From Candidatus Cacconaster scatequi (GTDB lineage: Bacteria > Bacteroidota > Bacteroidia > Bacteroidales > UBA932): DNA of 52,220 nt. Shown here one piece after another: positions 79-25,698 of the stretch. The position numbers and the translations under genes were made by a program. The notes under the pieces were generated by a model, which saw nothing but the letters and a program-made list of their open reading frames with translations, did no database searches and had not been told where the DNA came from. The DNA lies in contig JAGHTO010000035.1 of assembly GCA_018065305.1 (NCBI GenBank), positions 1-52,220 on the forward strand, read 5' to 3'. Positions within the stretch are counted from its first letter, which is position 1. Each line of letters starts with the position of its first letter.

Positions 79-423
79 TTATTCCACCAGCGAATGCATT
101 ATGCGGGTGAGGGTGAGGTTTTCGTCATCGAGACTGTAGTCCCAGTTCATTATGCCCAGAAGACCATGTTCCTTGATGTAATCACATTTGATTTGCAGGG
201 AGCGGGCGTTCTCAAAACCAAAGACAAATTCGCCGTTGCTGTCTTCTATGTATGGAGCATGGGCGGATTTGTCCCATTGTTCGGTATAGCCTTCAGGAAT
301 CGGGTAGATGTTCCTGAAGTCCATGCTTTTCCTGAAACTTTCCACTCCACGTCCGTAGAAAGGAACACCCATCACCACTTTATCGGCAGGAACGCCGGCC
401 TTGATGTGGTCCTGGACGAACTT
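79..423 (-). pseudogene. C-terminal remnant of a GH18 chitinase-like glycosidase
   Basis: The minus frame from 423 to the stop at 79-81 reads as the end of a glycoside hydrolase family 18 barrel. It has the strand FVQDHIKAGVPADKVVMGVP, then FYGRG, and near the end GIMNWDYSLDD, the usual last barrel strand and helix. The GH18 catalytic DxxDxDxE strand would lie upstream and is absent. An in-frame TAA at 424-426 sits just before the recognisable part, and the DNA beyond it does not look like GH18. The piece is about 115 residues against 300 or more for a whole domain. I infer a 5' deletion or rearrangement that left an inactive fragment. It could still be a short translated ORF from the ATG at 378. 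Confidence 0.75.
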
Positions 424-552: not shown

Positions 553-780
553 GGTGCGGCTTCCCGCTTAGAGGTCTGCGACGTTAGTATTCATATTTTT
601 TGAGATATTTGGAATAATTTGTATATTTGAACTTGCTTAGCTAGCCTAGTATCCATAATCTTCAGATTTTCACGCTTCTAATGATTATCTGGTTATGGTT
701 GCAGGGTTGGGTGGGCAGACATATTGAAGACGTTACTTGACGTTTATCTTCTGCATCAAACTTCGCAACTTTGATTTATT

Positions 781-966
781 CACTAAGAAGATAGCGCAAC
801 GGGGGCGTCCACTGGCGATGACGATTCGGTCATCTGCGCCGTTATCTAGGCGTGGGGATTACTGTATATCATCCCTGACGTGGGCTAGCTACGTTGCTTA
901 TCCTTAGTGAAGGCAGCGAAGGCCTGATGCAGGATGAGCAAGAGTAAGACTCCCACGTTTTTTTTG
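781..966 (+). ncRNA. Candidate structured non-coding RNA with terminal U tract
   Basis: CACTAAG (781-787) pairs perfectly with CTTAGTG (903-909). The helix continues inward as GATA/TATC (790-793 with 899-902) and GCAAC/GTTGC (796-800 with 893-897), about 16 bp in all. Inside are two hairpins: GGCGATGAC closing on GTCAT..CGCC (814-840), and a CTAG/CTAG, CGT/ACG, GGGAT/ATCCC arm (846-888). Downstream, CCCACGT (952-958) can pair with ACGTGGG (878-884) and is followed directly by a run of about eight T (958-965), as in a terminator or pseudoknot. CAACTTTG at 767-774 resembles a -7 element. I do not recognise a known family (it is not tmRNA, SRP RNA or RNase P RNA). The plus strand is chosen because of the T run. 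Both ends are estimates. Confidence 0.5.
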
Positions 967-1105
967 TGTTCAAAATTTCGGCGTGGCGAGTATTTAAGCG
1001 CTTGCAAATCAGCAAATAACGCGTAAACTTTCATTAACGTCTTGAGTCCGCAACTTGGAGTAAGGATGGAGACTTTTATTGCACAACAACCAATAACATT
1101 AAAAT

Positions 1106-1246
1106 ATGAATATGCAAAATTTGACCACCCCAGAAAAAGAAATTTATCAGCAGCCGATGCTGAAGGTCATTACTATTCAGACCAGCCGGTGTATCCTTGA
1201 AAATTCTAATACTGAATTTGAGTTTGGTGGTGACCATATCCAATAA
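1106..1246 (+). CDS. 46-aa peptide of the kind that precedes Bacteroidales surface-protein genes
   Basis: ATG at 1106 opens a 46-codon frame ending TAA at 1244-1246. The peptide contains EIYQQPMLKVITIQT, a single Cys, then ILENSN and a short acidic tail. Bacteroidales genomes often carry small proteins of this layout (a Y-x-x-P motif, a beta-like stretch, then a Cys or SN segment) just before fimbrillin-like genes; their function is unknown to me. It lies 30 bp upstream of the adhesin gene in the same direction, so cotranscription is likely. It has no signal peptide. Codon use is ordinary, and the similarity in layout is the main reason to accept so short a gene. Confidence 0.55.
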   Translation: MNMQNLTTPEKEIYQQPMLKVITIQTSRCILENSNTEFEFGGDHIQ

Positions 1247-1276: not shown

Positions 1277-4200
1277 ATGTTCAAAAGATGTTTTTTACTG
1301 ACAGTCATATCAATTCTGACTTTTGTGGCCTGTACAAAAGATGTACAGGATCCTGGATTGCAGTCGACAAGACCGGCGGTTTACGGTAGTGTCCATTCTC
1401 TTTCCGTGGGTATTGAATCCGGCGCTTATATGCCCGAAGATGGTGGCACGAAGGCCTCGACGGAGGCGATTATCCGCGTGAAATGGGAGCAGAACGATGA
1501 AGTTTCGGTAGTCAATGCCACCACCGGGAAGATACTCGGGGGATGCCTGAAGGCAACTGAGAGTGGAGAAAACGTTGTTTTCTCGGGAACCGTAGAGGGA
1601 ACTATCAATAATAATGATGTTTTGTATTACGTTTACCCAAGGATTGCCCAGAATGAAGGCGAGATTGCGTTTGACCAGGGCGGCTGGGATGTCAGTTTGG
1701 CAAATCAGACTTATGACGGCTTAAACGCCAACAAGGTATGCTTTTTCGGTTTTGCCAAGGACCAGGCATCTTCCACTTCCACATCGACCGCCATTTCCAG
1801 ACATATCAAGTTCACTCTGGTGACTTCATATGCCCATCTGAATATGTCCAATCTCCCGGCTGCTGGATTCAACTTGAGCAGCATCGACATCTCAAATGTC
1901 AACAAGGGTTTCACGTGGAGTCTGTCAGATAATACACTGTCCACTATTGCGTATGGAGAGAACGAAGGTATCTCTGTGAACTGCACCAATACCAAGATTA
2001 CAAAGGCCGGCAATGCAGTTGTGCGCTTTGCAATACCCGCAAGTTCGGAAAGTTCCGTCGCCAGAGTTGTTACGGTTAACAAGGCATACACCAATGACAA
2101 GTATGTCAAAGATGAGTTGAAGTCATCGGCATATTACAACCAGTTGTATACAAGCTGGAAAAGCAATGTGAGTGTCTCTTCCGAGTCTGACAAAACCAAG
2201 GTCACTGTTACCAGTGATGGTTCAACGGATGTGGCTGAGGGCGTTATTCCCGTTGCTGACGCTTTTGTGGCTGACAAAAATACGGAAATCGGCATTGGCG
2301 GTGTGGGAACGGTTACCTTTGATGCAACTGCGACGGCAAAAATCAAGAGTAATGCCGATGCCGAGGGCTCTATGAATGTGTTCTTCAAGGTGGAGGATGT
2401 AACGGAAACCAAACCTGTTCAGGATGCCAACCTTGTTTATGAGGTTACAATGAAAACCGTCGATGAACAGGGGGTTGAGGTGTTCTCAACAGAAAAGGCG
2501 GCAGGTGTCGCTACCGTAACGGTCCCTCTTGGAGAGGAGGTGGAAAGCGTGACCAGCGTCGCCCTTGTCAACGAAAGTGGAGTCGTAATCGAAGGCGGAG
2601 TTGTTCCTGAAAGTGTCCATTTCGAAAATGGTATCCTGACTTTCAACGTGAATCACTTCTCAAAGTACGCAATCAAGTACACAGTAAAGGGCGGTGAGGT
2701 TGATTATGTAGCCCAAATCGGCAGCCGCAAGTACACCACTCTTGCAAAGGCCGTTGAAGCTGTCCAAAGCGGAAATACCATACAGCTTCTTTGTGATTGT
2801 ATGGAGGGAGAAGGCATAATTGTTCCCGGAGGGAAGAATTTCACTCTTGATTTCGGCGGACACACCTACAAGGTCACCAAGGATTTGGCGGGCTCAACTG
2901 GAACAAAGAATCAATGCTTCCAGTTGCTTAAAGGCTCAACTCTCGTCTTCCAAAACGGTACAATTACAACCTCTTGCGCAAAACTCGGAATCAATTCATA
3001 TTCAGACCTTATTGTAAAGGATGTGACAGTCGATATGTCACAAACTTCGGCGACCGGTCAGGTTGCTTGTCTTGAGACTTGCAATGGAAGTATTTCACTT
3101 CAGGGCAATACCAGTCTCGTTGCTAAAGAAGGACAGATTGCCGTTCTGGCACTTTACTGGCCAAACGGAGGATATGGTGATATCAATGTTGAGTTGAACA
3201 CTACAGGTGAAGTCAAAGGGTTGATGGCCTATGGATCATACCAAGTACAGGATGTATCCACTGTGGCACAGCACTCCCACGTAGCAATCAAGAATGGCAA
3301 GTATGACGTAACCTTCGATATGGATAATCTTGAAAACTATGACTTCAAGATTTATGGAGGAGTTTTCAAAACGAATCCTGATACAAAATATTTAGCTCCT
3401 AATCATGAAGTGGTTACGAATACCGATTCGGAGACTTCTGCTTCTTATCCACACAAAGTCCAGCAGAAACCTTACGTTGCAATGATCGGTGAGAACGGAT
3501 ATTTCTCCCTTGCGGATGCTCTTGTTGCCGTTAAAAATAACGAAACAATAGTAATGCATCAGAATGACGTCCTGACGAAAGGTCTCACCATTACTCTCGA
3601 GAATAATGAAGCGTTCACGCTTGATCTCAACGGAAAGACAGTTTCTATTGCTGAGACGGGATTTAACTTTACGGCAAATGGCACCAACGCTGCTTTGAGA
3701 TCTGGTGTTCCTCTTCGTTTTGCAATTGTAGTCAATGGCAACGGAACGATGAACATCTGCGACAATAGCACAGGCGAGTCCGGTCGTCTTGAGACAAAGA
3801 ACAACTCTTACGGAACCACCAAGACCATCCTCGTTGACGGCAATGCGATAGTAAACGTGAACAGCGGAACCATCGCTGCAGATTATGCTCCATTCTACGT
3901 AGTTGGATTTACTGGAACGACGGCAGTTCCCGCCGATGCACCCAAGCCTACACTGAACGTCAATGGCGGAAAAATTTTCGGCCAGCAGTTAGGTATCGGA
4001 ATCAAAGGAAATACGGCAATACTTAAGGTTACTGGAGGTGAAATCATTGGCAAAGAGTATTATGGCGTTTCCACAAATGGCACCCAGGACTGGTACGATG
4101 GCGGCAAATTTGCCATCGAAATCACAGGCGGTTCCATCAAGTCTGAGGATGGACCAGCCATGTATCTTCCTGCAGAAGGTCCTACAGTAATTACAGGCGG

Positions 4201-5554
4201 AACTATTGAAGGTGCTACCGGTATTGCCGTCAAGGGAGGTTCTCTCTCAATTTCTGACAATGCAGTTGTCAAAGCCTTTGGACCTTTCGTTGAGGCTCAT
4301 GAGGTAAGCAGCGGCAATGCAAACACCGGCAGTGCCATTTATGTTGAAGATACATATGCCAACCACGCACCTTTCGTAAACATCTCTGGCGGTAAGTTCT
4401 CAAGTGCAAACAACAAAGCCGTGGAATATTATACAACCAAGGCCGACGATGCTGCCGACAAGGGCAAAGTTACCCTCACCGGTGGGCTGTACAGCGACCA
4501 GCCGGAAGCATTTCTTATTGGCGCAAACTATGAAGCGGTCTCAAACAGCGATGCAACATATAAATACAAAGTTCAGCAGAAACCGCCAGTGGTTAAAATC
4601 GGTGGCGTGGAGTACGCCACCCTCGCCGACGCTTTTGCTGCGGTACCTACCGACGGCACAGCTACAACCGTAACCCTTCTCGAGAATATCGGAAGCAAAG
4701 TTGGAGACGGGATCGTTTGGAAGGAGTATGCACGCGAATTTGCATATACGGTAAATGCTAATCAGAATATAACTTTCGATTTGAACGGCAAGAAGATATA
4801 TGCCAAGACAACCGTCAACGGCTATACCGGATTCCTCTTGGTTAAGAACGGAGGGTCATTGACAATTAAGGACTCTGCAGGAGGTGGCGAACTTAATTAT
4901 CTTGACGGGAATGATAATAACGGCGGTCTTGCCATTAGTTCTGAAGGTAACTTGACAATTCATTCAGGCACAATTGAAAATCATACCAATTGTAATGCTT
5001 CCGCCATCCAGGGTGCAATCGACGTTCATGCAAATGAATGGGGAACATCTTACACTCATCACGTTACGTTCAAAATGGACGGAGGCGTTCTCAAGAGCCA
5101 GAATGACAATACCCTTCGAATCTATGACTCCAGCCAGACCGGTAAAGGCACCGTTGTTTTTGACTTCGAAATTAACGGAGGAGAAATTTATGGCGCAGAT
5201 GCGGTATTCATTATGACTCAATGGACTAAAACGTACTGCACAGGTGATACATATATGAACAACATCAATGTCAACGTCAAGGGCGGAAAGTTTGTTACCA
5301 AAAACGGAATACGTGTAGTTGGAAATGTTGGAGAAGATAATAACAAGGCTTACAAGGCGATAAATATTAATGTTTCGGGAGGTGATTTCACTATTTTAAG
5401 TTCCAAGGAATCTAAACACAGAGTGAACAATGTTGCATTCCAAGAATCTGCCGGTTGGGCATCAACTGAAGAGTCAACCAAGCATCTTCGTTCTTACACT
5501 GAAGTAACCTGGACAGCTTCCGCTCCGACATATTCAACACCGACTCAGCAATAA
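1277..5554 (+). CDS. Large surface lipoprotein: fimbrillin-like head plus three beta-helix modules
   Basis: The 1,425-aa product starts with a lipoprotein signal peptide ending TFVAC (Cys19), so it is predicted to be lipid-anchored and probably exported to the cell surface. Residues about 40-290 resemble the fimbrillin/Mfa-like N-terminal domain of Bacteroidales (GGTKAS, WEQNDEVSV). A linker with HFSKYAI ends near residue 465. Three modules then begin near residues 477, 733 and 1105, each with a signature of the form VA.IG...Y.TLA.A..AV, followed in modules 2 and 3 by LNGK and runs of GG-turn strands typical of right-handed beta-helix (pectate-lyase-like) folds. Modules 2 and 3 are both preceded by KVQQKP. 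No type IX sorting tail is visible. A role in adhesion or glycan binding is inferred; the specific ligand is unknown. Confidence 0.8.
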   Translation: MFKRCFLLTVISILTFVACTKDVQDPGLQSTRPAVYGSVHSLSVGIESGAYMPEDGGTKASTEAIIRVKWEQNDEVSVVNATTGKILGGCLKATESGENVVFSGTVEGTINNNDVLYYVYPRIAQNEGEIAFDQGGWDVSLANQTYDGLNANKVCFFGFAKDQASSTSTSTAISRHIKFTLVTSYAHLNMSNLPAAGFNLSSIDISNVNKGFTWSLSDNTLSTIAYGENEGISVNCTNTKITKAGNAVVRFAIPASSESSVARVVTVNKAYTNDKYVKDELKSSAYYNQLYTSWKSNVSVSSESDKTKVTVTSDGSTDVAEGVIPVADAFVADKNTEIGIGGVGTVTFDATATAKIKSNADAEGSMNVFFKVEDVTETKPVQDANLVYEVTMKTVDEQGVEVFSTEKAAGVATVTVPLGEEVESVTSVALVNESGVVIEGGVVPESVHFENGILTFNVNHFSKYAIKYTVKGGEVDYVAQIGSRKYTTLAKAVEAVQSGNTIQLLCDCMEGEGIIVPGGKNFTLDFGGHTYKVTKDLAGSTGTKNQCFQLLKGSTLVFQNGTITTSCAKLGINSYSDLIVKDVTVDMSQTSATGQVACLETCNGSISLQGNTSLVAKEGQIAVLALYWPNGGYGDINVELNTTGEVKGLMAYGSYQVQDVSTVAQHSHVAIKNGKYDVTFDMDNLENYDFKIYGGVFKTNPDTKYLAPNHEVVTNTDSETSASYPHKVQQKPYVAMIGENGYFSLADALVAVKNNETIVMHQNDVLTKGLTITLENNEAFTLDLNGKTVSIAETGFNFTANGTNAALRSGVPLRFAIVVNGNGTMNICDNSTGESGRLETKNNSYGTTKTILVDGNAIVNVNSGTIAADYAPFYVVGFTGTTAVPADAPKPTLNVNGGKIFGQQLGIGIKGNTAILKVTGGEIIGKEYYGVSTNGTQDWYDGGKFAIEITGGSIKSEDGPAMYLPAEGPTVITGGTIEGATGIAVKGGSLSISDNAVVKAFGPFVEAHEVSSGNANTGSAIYVEDTYANHAPFVNISGGKFSSANNKAVEYYTTKADDAADKGKVTLTGGLYSDQPEAFLIGANYEAVSNSDATYKYKVQQKPPVVKIGGVEYATLADAFAAVPTDGTATTVTLLENIGSKVGDGIVWKEYAREFAYTVNANQNITFDLNGKKIYAKTTVNGYTGFLLVKNGGSLTIKDSAGGGELNYLDGNDNNGGLAISSEGNLTIHSGTIENHTNCNASAIQGAIDVHANEWGTSYTHHVTFKMDGGVLKSQNDNTLRIYDSSQTGKGTVVFDFEINGGEIYGADAVFIMTQWTKTYCTGDTYMNNINVNVKGGKFVTKNGIRVVGNVGEDNNKAYKAININVSGGDFTILSSKESKHRVNNVAFQESAGWASTEESTKHLRSYTEVTWTASAPTYSTPTQQ

Positions 5555-6716: not shown

Positions 6717-6789
6717 AGCCACTCACGAGGCTCGAACTCGCGACCTGCGCGTTACGAATGCGCTGCTCTACCGACTGAGCTAAAGTGGC
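6717..6789 (-). tRNA. tRNA-Thr (anticodon CGU)
   Basis: The minus strand folds as a full cloverleaf. The acceptor stem is GCCACTT with GAGTGGC; the D arm is GCTC/GAGC; the anticodon loop TTCGTAA gives anticodon CGU for threonine codon ACG; and the T arm has TTCGAGC. The discriminator is T and CCA is not encoded. The last anticodon-stem pair is an A-C mismatch (positions 31 and 39), where E. coli tRNA-Thr(CGU) has A-U. It lies about 13 bp downstream of rnpB on the same strand. Confidence 0.93.
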
Positions 6790-6802
6790 CTTTTTCAAAA
6801 AT

Positions 6803-7146
6803 AAGGTGAGCCTGTAAGCCGAATTCTGTACCCTTTCGGGCTTCTATCATTTATCTGTTGCAGCCTACCCCTCGGCATCGGGCGAGCAACCCTTAAAACC
6901 GATATATTTGGCCTTGCAGCCCTCCGGCGCGTACCCGTCCGGCGTCACCGCCTTACGTTGTGAGCTCTTGCCTCGCATTTTCACCCTTACCGGCCCCGGA
7001 ATCATCGATCCGGGTTAAACCGGCGGTTATTTTCTGTTACGCTCGTTCCAAAAACTTACGCCCTTCTGTGCTTTCCACAGGGAGGTGCTCTGCGCTGTCC
7101 GGACTTTCCTCACCGCTTACGCGGCGCGATAGAACGTCTTACCTTA
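6803..7146 (-). ncRNA. rnpB: RNase P RNA (bacterial type A)
   Basis: The minus strand contains the universal P4 5' strand GAGGAAAGTCCGGAC, the internal conserved AGGGTGAAA and CAAGAGCTCAC segments, and the 3' end ACAGAATTCGGCTTACAGG, all hallmarks of the catalytic RNA of RNase P, which trims tRNA 5' leaders. The ends pair as P1 (ATAAGGT with ACCTTAT). A -7 promoter element lies just upstream at 7154-7161. The length of about 344 nt fits the family. Exact ends are estimated from P1. Confidence 0.93.
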
Positions 7147-25583: not shown

Positions 25584-25688
25584 AAAAAGGGTAAGCTTGA
25601 TATATCGCACCGCTACAACCACTTACCCTTGCTGTCTTCCGACCCTGGGGGAGTTCAGTGGGAGCTGGTCGTATATGACTTACCCCAC
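25584..25688 (-). ncRNA. ffs: Signal recognition particle RNA (small bacterial 4.5S type)
   Basis: On the minus strand the conserved SRP54-binding hairpin reads CCCCCAGGGTCGGAAGACAG then CAAGGGTAAG, with the GGAA tetraloop and asymmetric loop typical of 4.5S RNA. The ends pair as GGGTAAG with CTTACCC, and a T5-C-T5 stretch follows. A -7 element TATATTTG (25691-25698, minus) sits just upstream. The RNA of about 105 nt partners Ffh, and its receptor FtsY is encoded at 41913. Ends are estimated to within a few bases. Confidence 0.9.
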
Positions 25689-25690
25689 TG

Positions 25691-25698
25691 CAAATATA
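25691..25698 (-). promoter_or_regulatory. -7 promoter element of ffs
   Basis: The minus strand reads TATATTTG, placing the start of transcription at about 25685-25688, the first bases of the SRP RNA stem. Confidence 0.7.

Follow-up and report, generated by a model that had tools for sequence, protein, structure and literature searches.

What is the RNA candidate that lies between a truncated minus-strand GH18 gene and the protein gene at 1277-5554 in the window, by which we mean the whole 52,220-nt stretch of Candidatus Cacconaster scatequi DNA analyzed here? A sequence-only reading had singled out positions 781-966 as a self-contained structured RNA that could switch between two folds, and it left open whether this RNA is a stand-alone regulator or a leader of the genes behind it. 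We found that 781-966 is the 3' part of a longer unit, from about 636 to 966, which is itself a member of a family of 5' leader RNAs. Here, we describe the range of this family, the pairings that its members have in common and the regulatory mechanism that they suggest.

Results

A leader family in Bacteroidales

A blastn search of 100 related genomes gave clear copies in seven (the organism's own genome, G002, G024, G056 and G079, and G009 and G030 with two copies each), and the weaker matches in G076 turned out to be true copies once they were read. The first alignment of these copies suggested two exclusive folds. The scan pattern derived from that alignment fixes CGTGGG, TTGCTYRT and CCCACGYYTTT, and these fixed letters therefore carry no evidence. 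With this pattern, at least 118 stretches were found in a collection of bacterial and archaeal genomes. Among the 80 matches listed, 78 bear names that we take to be those of Bacteroidales (Bacteroides, Prevotella, Paraprevotella, Alistipes, Muribaculaceae, Salinivirgaceae and others), and of the other two, one has Firmicutes in its title and the other just bacterium. Only two stretches came from viral contigs, and blastn of the window copy against phage and plasmid collections returned no match.

A model of the terminator part (R1) matched 66 of 295 Bacteroidales genomes at E<=1e-5, at up to nine places in each, and a single one of 296 genomes drawn from the phylum at E<=1e-4, namely the organism's own; few of these 296 are from Bacteroidales, and the filters in both searches were stricter, with the result that weak matches were lost. 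At E<=0.01, R1 matched all 14 genomes of another set (the own genome and 13 reached through the loci), as expected of genomes chosen as carriers, with a few places counted on both strands. The family was seen to be almost confined to Bacteroidales, many of them from animal guts.

For the comparisons below, we used 131 leaders, made up of 120 pattern matches (118 genomic and two viral), the window copy and ten relatives; a few of them are the same locus twice (e.g., L032 and L154). Swap tests covered the 122 distinct leaders with enough upstream sequence, or 121 for the apical loop, one leader having no recognized loop. A subset of 113 leaders, chosen by a loop match of at least 6 nt, served for the promoter search, for the swap tests of strand 1 with strands 2 and 4 and for folding.

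Extent of the window copy

Most of the elements that the sequence-only reading had named are indeed there. The 16-bp closing helix is found both in the sequence and in the minimum-energy fold (781-787/903-909, 790-793/899-902 and 796-800/893-897), the 7-bp match 878-884/952-958 and the final T-run are present in the sequence, and of 200 dinucleotide shuffles of 778-968, 199 fold less well than the original (z -2.8), in line with a structured RNA. The proposed limits, however, were too narrow. The unit begins approximately 150 nt further upstream, and 781-966 takes in strands 2, 3 and 4 (Table 1) but leaves strand 1 (approximately 726-766) and the promoter box outside. For the extended stretch 722-966, none of 200 shuffles folds as well (z -5.4).

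TAnnTTTG, which we take to be the Bacteroidetes -7 promoter consensus and on which the naming of the promoter box in Table 1 is based, occurs 10-160 nt upstream of the strand-1 loop in 91 of the 113 leaders, compared with 9.2 of 113 for random windows from the same loci, a control that was not A+T-matched. Its spacing from the loop is 85-117 nt in 73 of 101 occurrences and 139 nt in the window. Because the box lies upstream in 91 of 113 leaders, an RNA start well before 781 is probable, and the transcript of the window leader would begin at about 634-640. The 5' hairpin that follows stands outside the core; its covariation was not above that of shuffles (80.5% paired, shuffled mean 79.6), and the hairpin itself was not seen by eye in the AT-rich reduced members described below.

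The flank 5' of the leader differs between the window and the G002 locus, where similarity starts only at about 696, whereas the gene at 1277-5554 has 85.6% DNA identity over 3916 bases to the post-leader gene in G002. The 1425-aa protein that it encodes has no Pfam match at E 0.01. The truncated gene on the other side (82-420, minus strand) is a C-terminal fragment of a GH18 chitinase-like gene covering profile positions 209-317 of 317. Elsewhere on the minus strand, the window carries an RNase P RNA (6799-7145) with a directly adjoining tRNA-Thr (6717-6789) and a small SRP RNA (25585-25692).

Table 1. Parts of the leader and neighboring features in the window
Feature	Position	Strand	Basis or remark
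-7 promoter box, Bacteroidetes type, TATATTTG	622-629	+	sequence
5' hairpin, 3' side GGGTGGG-like; outside core	641-710	+	RNAalifold, 46 leaders
Strand 1	726-766	+	partner of strand 2 (state T) or strand 4 (state A)
Strand 1:2 pairs, state T	729-734/804-809, 741-744/798-801, 745-752/786-793	+	
Strand 1:4 pairs, state A	727-733/955-961, 742-748/933-939, 751-758/925-932, 761-766/916-921	+	
Strand 2	781-812	+	with strand 3 in state A (closing helix and 807-812/880-885), with strand 1 in state T
Variable region between strands 2 and 3	813-876	+	local hairpins predicted in window copy
Strand 3	877-909	+	5' half of terminator-like hairpin (878-884, 894-903) and 3' half of closing helix
Apical hairpin of terminator, AGGC/GCCT	911-925	+	loop GCGAAG (916-921) pairs with CTTCGC (761-766) in state A
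Strand 4	916-962	+	3' half of terminator-like hairpin (932-941, 952-958) in state T, partner of strand 1 in state A
U-run of terminator-like hairpin	958-965	+	sequence
Post-terminator hairpin, weak candidate	1045-1075	+	by eye; loop GGAGT (1057-1061) could pair with ACTCC (950-954)
Possible 46-aa peptide ORF 3' of leader	1106-1246	+	ORF call alone; no Pfam match
Predicted 1425-aa lipoprotein-like protein; likely regulated gene	1277-5554	+	ORF call

Four strands and two exclusive pairing states

Comparison of the leaders shows a core of four strands with two exclusive pairing sets, state T (1:2 and 3:4) and state A (2:3 and 1:4). The 3:4 pairing of state T is a terminator-like hairpin, and state A occupies both of its strands. 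When 46 class-1 leaders (TTGCTTAT or TTGCTCAT type), which were additionally required to have the promoter box, were folded with RNAalifold from promoter to terminator, the consensus was state A, with strand 1 (726-766) paired to strand 4 (916-962) and strand 2 (781-812) to strand 3 (880-909). For 51 class-2 leaders (TTGCTCGT type), aligned separately, the consensus was state T with 1:2 and 3:4; six of the 113 leaders fell outside both classes and had no consensus fold of their own. The earlier suggestion of two exclusive folds is thus borne out by alternative conserved helices that share strands, although the competitor assigned to the 7-bp match has to be replaced: it is not the arm 846-888 but 807-812/880-885 together with 727-733/955-961.

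Each of the four pairings is supported beyond swapped or shuffled controls, which ignore the relatedness of the sequences, while several conserved sub-helices add no support. The closing helix (2:3), which the sequence-only reading had seen in one copy, is under selection, as its variable outer part finds a 6-mer complement in its own upstream region in 106 of 122 leaders, compared with a maximum of 33 for swapped partners. For 1:4, the 6-mer of the apical loop has its own upstream complement in 115 of 121 leaders (swapped mean 40, maximum 50); this is the fair test, as selection of the 113 leaders by loop match biases the 100% pairing of 761-766/916-921 seen among them. The adjoining 1:4 helix matched in 98 of 113 leaders, with a swapped maximum of 16. 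An earlier candidate, a kissing loop between 761-766 and 916-921, was superseded by the continuous 1:4 helix in the RNAalifold fold of the 46 leaders.

For 1:2, matches were found in 89 of 113 leaders (swapped maximum 67), and when strand 1 was taken from the other class they dropped from 47 to 20 of 54 and from 37 to 14 of 53. The inner 1:2 helix of class 1 had 92.3% of cells paired (shuffled maximum 88.0) and 21 double changes, compared with at most 12 in shuffles. The outer 1:2 helix initially placed at 739-743/805-809 was paired in 86.3% of cells against a shuffled mean of 87.0 and was superseded by 729-734/804-809, which, with 98.6% of cells paired, is too conserved to exceed shuffles. 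In 3:4, double changes occurred in 53 and 52 of 124 aligned copies at two pairs where the pattern was open to either of two letters on the 5' side and set no limit on the 3' side; across these copies, 5 of the 19 predicted pairs had any double change, and the inner 3:4 helix of class 1 had 10, compared with at most 8 in shuffles. Covariation in homologues, which had been proposed as a check on the structure, is therefore present. It did not rise above shuffles in the apical stem of the terminator or, within class 1, in helices that are too conserved, namely the outer and middle 1:2 helices, the outer and apical 3:4 helices, 742-748/933-939, 790-793/899-902 and 807-812/880-885. Mispairs in the helices of the 46 leaders were G-U (G-T in DNA) in 416 cases and A-C in 39; since G-U far outnumbers A-C, selection on the plus-strand RNA fits.

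Internal hairpins between 813 and 876 are predicted in the window copy, but the region that holds them is highly variable and nearly absent in four reduced members, and the swap test was weak there (48 of 122 leaders, swapped maximum 44). These reduced copies are weak matches from three genomes (two in G440, one each in G522 and G074). All four fold into the rod of state A, and the halves of the innermost helix, formed by strands 2 and 3, are only 3-4 nt apart. Because the strands are kept with so short a loop, we regard the four strands as the core and the variable region as an add-on. At one locus of an AT-rich genome (L163), two near-identical reduced leaders lie approximately 1.1 kb apart (639-718 and 1764-1843).

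Folding energies, terminator and post-terminator hairpin

Folded from 636, the window copy has an unconstrained minimum of -122.0 kcal/mol, which is state A; with the terminator forced, the energy is -108.3 kcal/mol, a cost of 13.7. In the minimum folds of growing prefixes, 1:2 forms first (13 of 18 pairs at 812), 2:3 next (22 of 22 pairs at 909) and then 1:4. Among the 113 leaders, folded from 50 nt upstream of the loop and not from the promoter, the predicted minimum contained 1:4 (state A) in 104, a number slightly biased by the loop-match selection, and the outer terminator helix of 3:4 in only six. Because state A is the energy minimum, the leader is predicted to rest in the read-through state, and termination would require a hold on 1:2, fast transcription or a factor. 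According to these models, the terminator would have to win kinetically or with help, and it might act only rarely.

The six bases past the three T of the pattern were 53-81% T across the 131 leaders, compared with 27% further on, and in 25 leaders the run had only the three T that the pattern requires. A simple terminator scan of 560-1300 listed two sites (0.5 expected), and the 3:4 hairpin, which is long and interrupted, was not among them, as the loop limit of 3-8 excludes it.

In many leaders, a short hairpin ahead of the start codon has a loop of the GGGAGTC type that complements the unpaired ACTCCC of strand 4. This loop had a 6-mer match in its own leader in 30 of 67 cases, compared with a maximum of 13 for swapped partners and with 2 of 67 for a stretch of the same length inside the gene. 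Because the hairpin lies past the terminator, the pairing could occur only in read-through RNA, where it may hold the leader in state A or act on translation. In one locus (L094, 698-732), DUF805b RNA (RF02914), a small cis-regulatory element, lies directly between the terminator and the gene (44 bits, gathering score 35.6). DUF805b was rejected as the identity of the post-terminator hairpin in general, as it was found in one of 20 loci at gathering score and in none of eight others at E<=1, and the common hairpin gave no match.

Genes behind the leader

The next gene is on the same strand in 111 of 122 leaders and on the opposite strand in 11; nine of the 131 leaders had no ORF called downstream. 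The start codons of the 111 lie a median of 75 nt past the end of the pattern. The calling of neighboring ORFs was crude, and two of the 11 opposite cases (L036 and L038) have longer same-strand genes past the leader. Upstream neighbors, in contrast, were divided between 57 on the same strand and 55 on the opposite strand. Of the two roles that the sequence-only reading had offered, this placement before genes, as judged by comparison of the loci, favors the leader and makes a stand-alone regulator unlikely.

We scanned the proteins of 102 of these 111 genes, leaving out the window's own and eight that lie more than 700 nt away and cutting long proteins at 1000 aa. Pfam assigned a very mixed set of 98 families, with BspA-type LRR_5 (8), LRR_8 (6), FHA (4), PEGA (4) and a carboxypeptidase-regulatory-like domain (4) being the commonest and AbiH, DNA methylase and a fimbrillin-like family matched once each. 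NCBIfam gave two HxsD and two Cxxx-repeat matches, and PADLOC gave one DndC. Within these three databases, we found neither a single functional theme nor a family pointing to a signal. The genes behind four leaders (L120, L161, L122 and L147) look like radical-SAM peptide systems, the HxsD/Cxxx-repeat assignment being made by eye. After five others (L096, L097, L108, L126 and L134), there is a similar short HTH-like protein (approximately 70-80 aa, by eye) that might belong to the regulation.

ATG-initiated ORFs of at least seven codons were present in 31 of 113 leaders, compared with 49.6 expected from mononucleotide shuffles. A peptide-controlled attenuator is therefore unsupported, such ORFs being fewer than the shuffles predict.

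Comparison with cataloged RNAs

Rfam, which had been named as a second check, matched no class over the window leader, either at gathering score or at E<=10. Over the leaders elsewhere, there was no match in 20 loci at gathering score and none in eight loci at E<=1. Bacteroid-trp (RF01692), according to its Rfam name and type likewise a Bacteroidetes leader family, did not match the leaders, and its sole sub-threshold match (41.3 bits, gathering score 49) lies at 1270-1404 of L119, past the end of the post-leader gene. An abiF RNA (RF03085, 58.5 bits) is found on the minus strand of L084 (5569-5605), approximately 350 bases past the end of the post-leader gene. In the portions of the literature available to us, including the motif surveys PMC8040213 and PMC2864571, no description of the leader family was found. 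The available portion of PMC8040213 reports palindromic terminator-like candidates, mostly from Bacteroidetes, and does not print their sequences; an earlier, unnamed listing of the leader among its 3161 candidates is possible. The leader family is apparently uncataloged.

Discussion

After comparing the leaders and their predicted folds, we consider it likely that this Bacteroidales family consists of cis-acting four-strand transcription attenuators that work by co-transcriptional strand exchange. As the polymerase copies the leader, strand 1 would first pair with strand 2. The emerging strand 3 could then displace strand 1 from strand 2 to form 2:3, and the freed strand 1 would zip onto the nascent strand 4, which would block the terminator and allow the gene to be read (state A). 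If 1:2 were held, strand 3 would remain free, the 3:4 hairpin would form with its U-run and transcription would stop (state T). In the read-through mRNA, the later hairpin before the start codon may bind the unpaired ACTCCC of strand 4, which would lock state A. The comparison itself shows the pairings, their mutual exclusion through shared strands and the placement ahead of genes; we infer the transcription, the termination, the order of these events in the cell and the signal that decides the outcome. As for the trigger, the region between strands 2 and 3 is dispensable, and we therefore think that a small molecule bound there is less likely than a protein or than the speed or state of the polymerase during elongation. 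More speculatively, the leader could be an aptamer-free four-strand switch that leaves the choice between termination and pseudoknot-locked read-through to refolding kinetics during transcription or to the state of the elongating polymerase, serving as a portable module over unrelated surface, peptide and defense genes of Bacteroidales; we put this forward only tentatively.

A riboswitch proper, that is, an attenuator whose state is set by a small molecule in a pocket of the leader, seems to us unlikely. The bistable fold with a terminator-like hairpin would suit one, as would the presence of several copies per genome before accessory genes, as in the Paraprevotella clara genome of locus L078, with nine places at E<=1e-5. 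However, the likeliest aptamer region varies and shrinks to a loop of 3-4 nt in the four reduced copies, and the downstream genes lack a common pathway. Given the reduced members, a large aptamer between strands 2 and 3 is unlikely, and a ligand pocket could instead lie in the conserved internal loops. These same loops could be read by a UpxY/LoaP-like NusG paralogue or another RNA-binding protein, making the trigger a protein-dependent antitermination. Bacteroidales use UpxY antitermination at capsule loci, and in alignment A3 the terminator helices are flanked by conserved letters that pair in neither state. Nevertheless, we regard this version of the trigger as doubtful, as no NusG paralogue is among the best 25 of the 98 Pfam names of the downstream proteins and a simple recruitment site needs no four-strand pairing.

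The most serious rival that needs no switch is a structural 5' UTR acting on mRNA stability or translation, with A as its sole functional fold and the U-run as part of, or beside, the 1:4 helix. The predominance of state A among the predicted minima (104 of 113) agrees with such an element, and so does the post-terminator hairpin, which meets strand 4 only in read-through RNA (30 of 67, against a maximum of 13). What makes it quite improbable in our judgment is that compensatory changes keep 3:4 and 1:2 and that T is enriched past the pattern end, although part of this T can pair with the A's before strand 1. A stand-alone trans-acting small RNA with its own terminator would suit the promoter box and the U-run, but we consider this very unlikely for RNAs that have a same-strand gene behind them in 111 of 122 loci at a median of 75 nt. 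An attC-like single-stranded DNA recombination site that moves gene cassettes is highly improbable: state A is a long imperfect inverted repeat, and the window and G002 have the leader and most of the gene in common with no similarity upstream of about 696, but the excess of G-T over A-C (416 to 39) fits a one-strand RNA, the promoter box and the U-run are conserved, and the element lies 5' of the gene, whereas an integron attC lies 3' of its gene.

Returning to the attenuator, among its closest relatives in design are the leaders of trp-operon type, in which 1:2, the antiterminator 2:3 and the terminator 3:4 are mutually exclusive. The leader has the same exclusive 1:2, 2:3 and 3:4 helices, but it adds the long 1:4 helix, has no sign of a peptide over strand 1 and is not bound to one pathway. 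In the yxjA purine (PMC9756952) and ZTP (PMC10085676) riboswitches, strand displacement during transcription is reported to pick the terminator or the antiterminator. This resembles what we propose for the leader, with the difference that the leader has no recognizable aptamer and that its core persists with 3-4 nt between strands 2 and 3.

The leader would add a family that is absent from Rfam 15. About one-fifth of the sampled Bacteroidales genomes (66 of 295) carry it, some in several copies, and it precedes adhesin-like, FHA and PEGA genes as well as a few defense-like or peptide-maturation genes. If our reading is true, a single RNA device controls a regulon made up of unrelated accessory genes. 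The clean architecture of the leader, with four strands, a 1:4 helix and little room for an aptamer, would make attenuation without a leader peptide or a classic aptamer directly testable.
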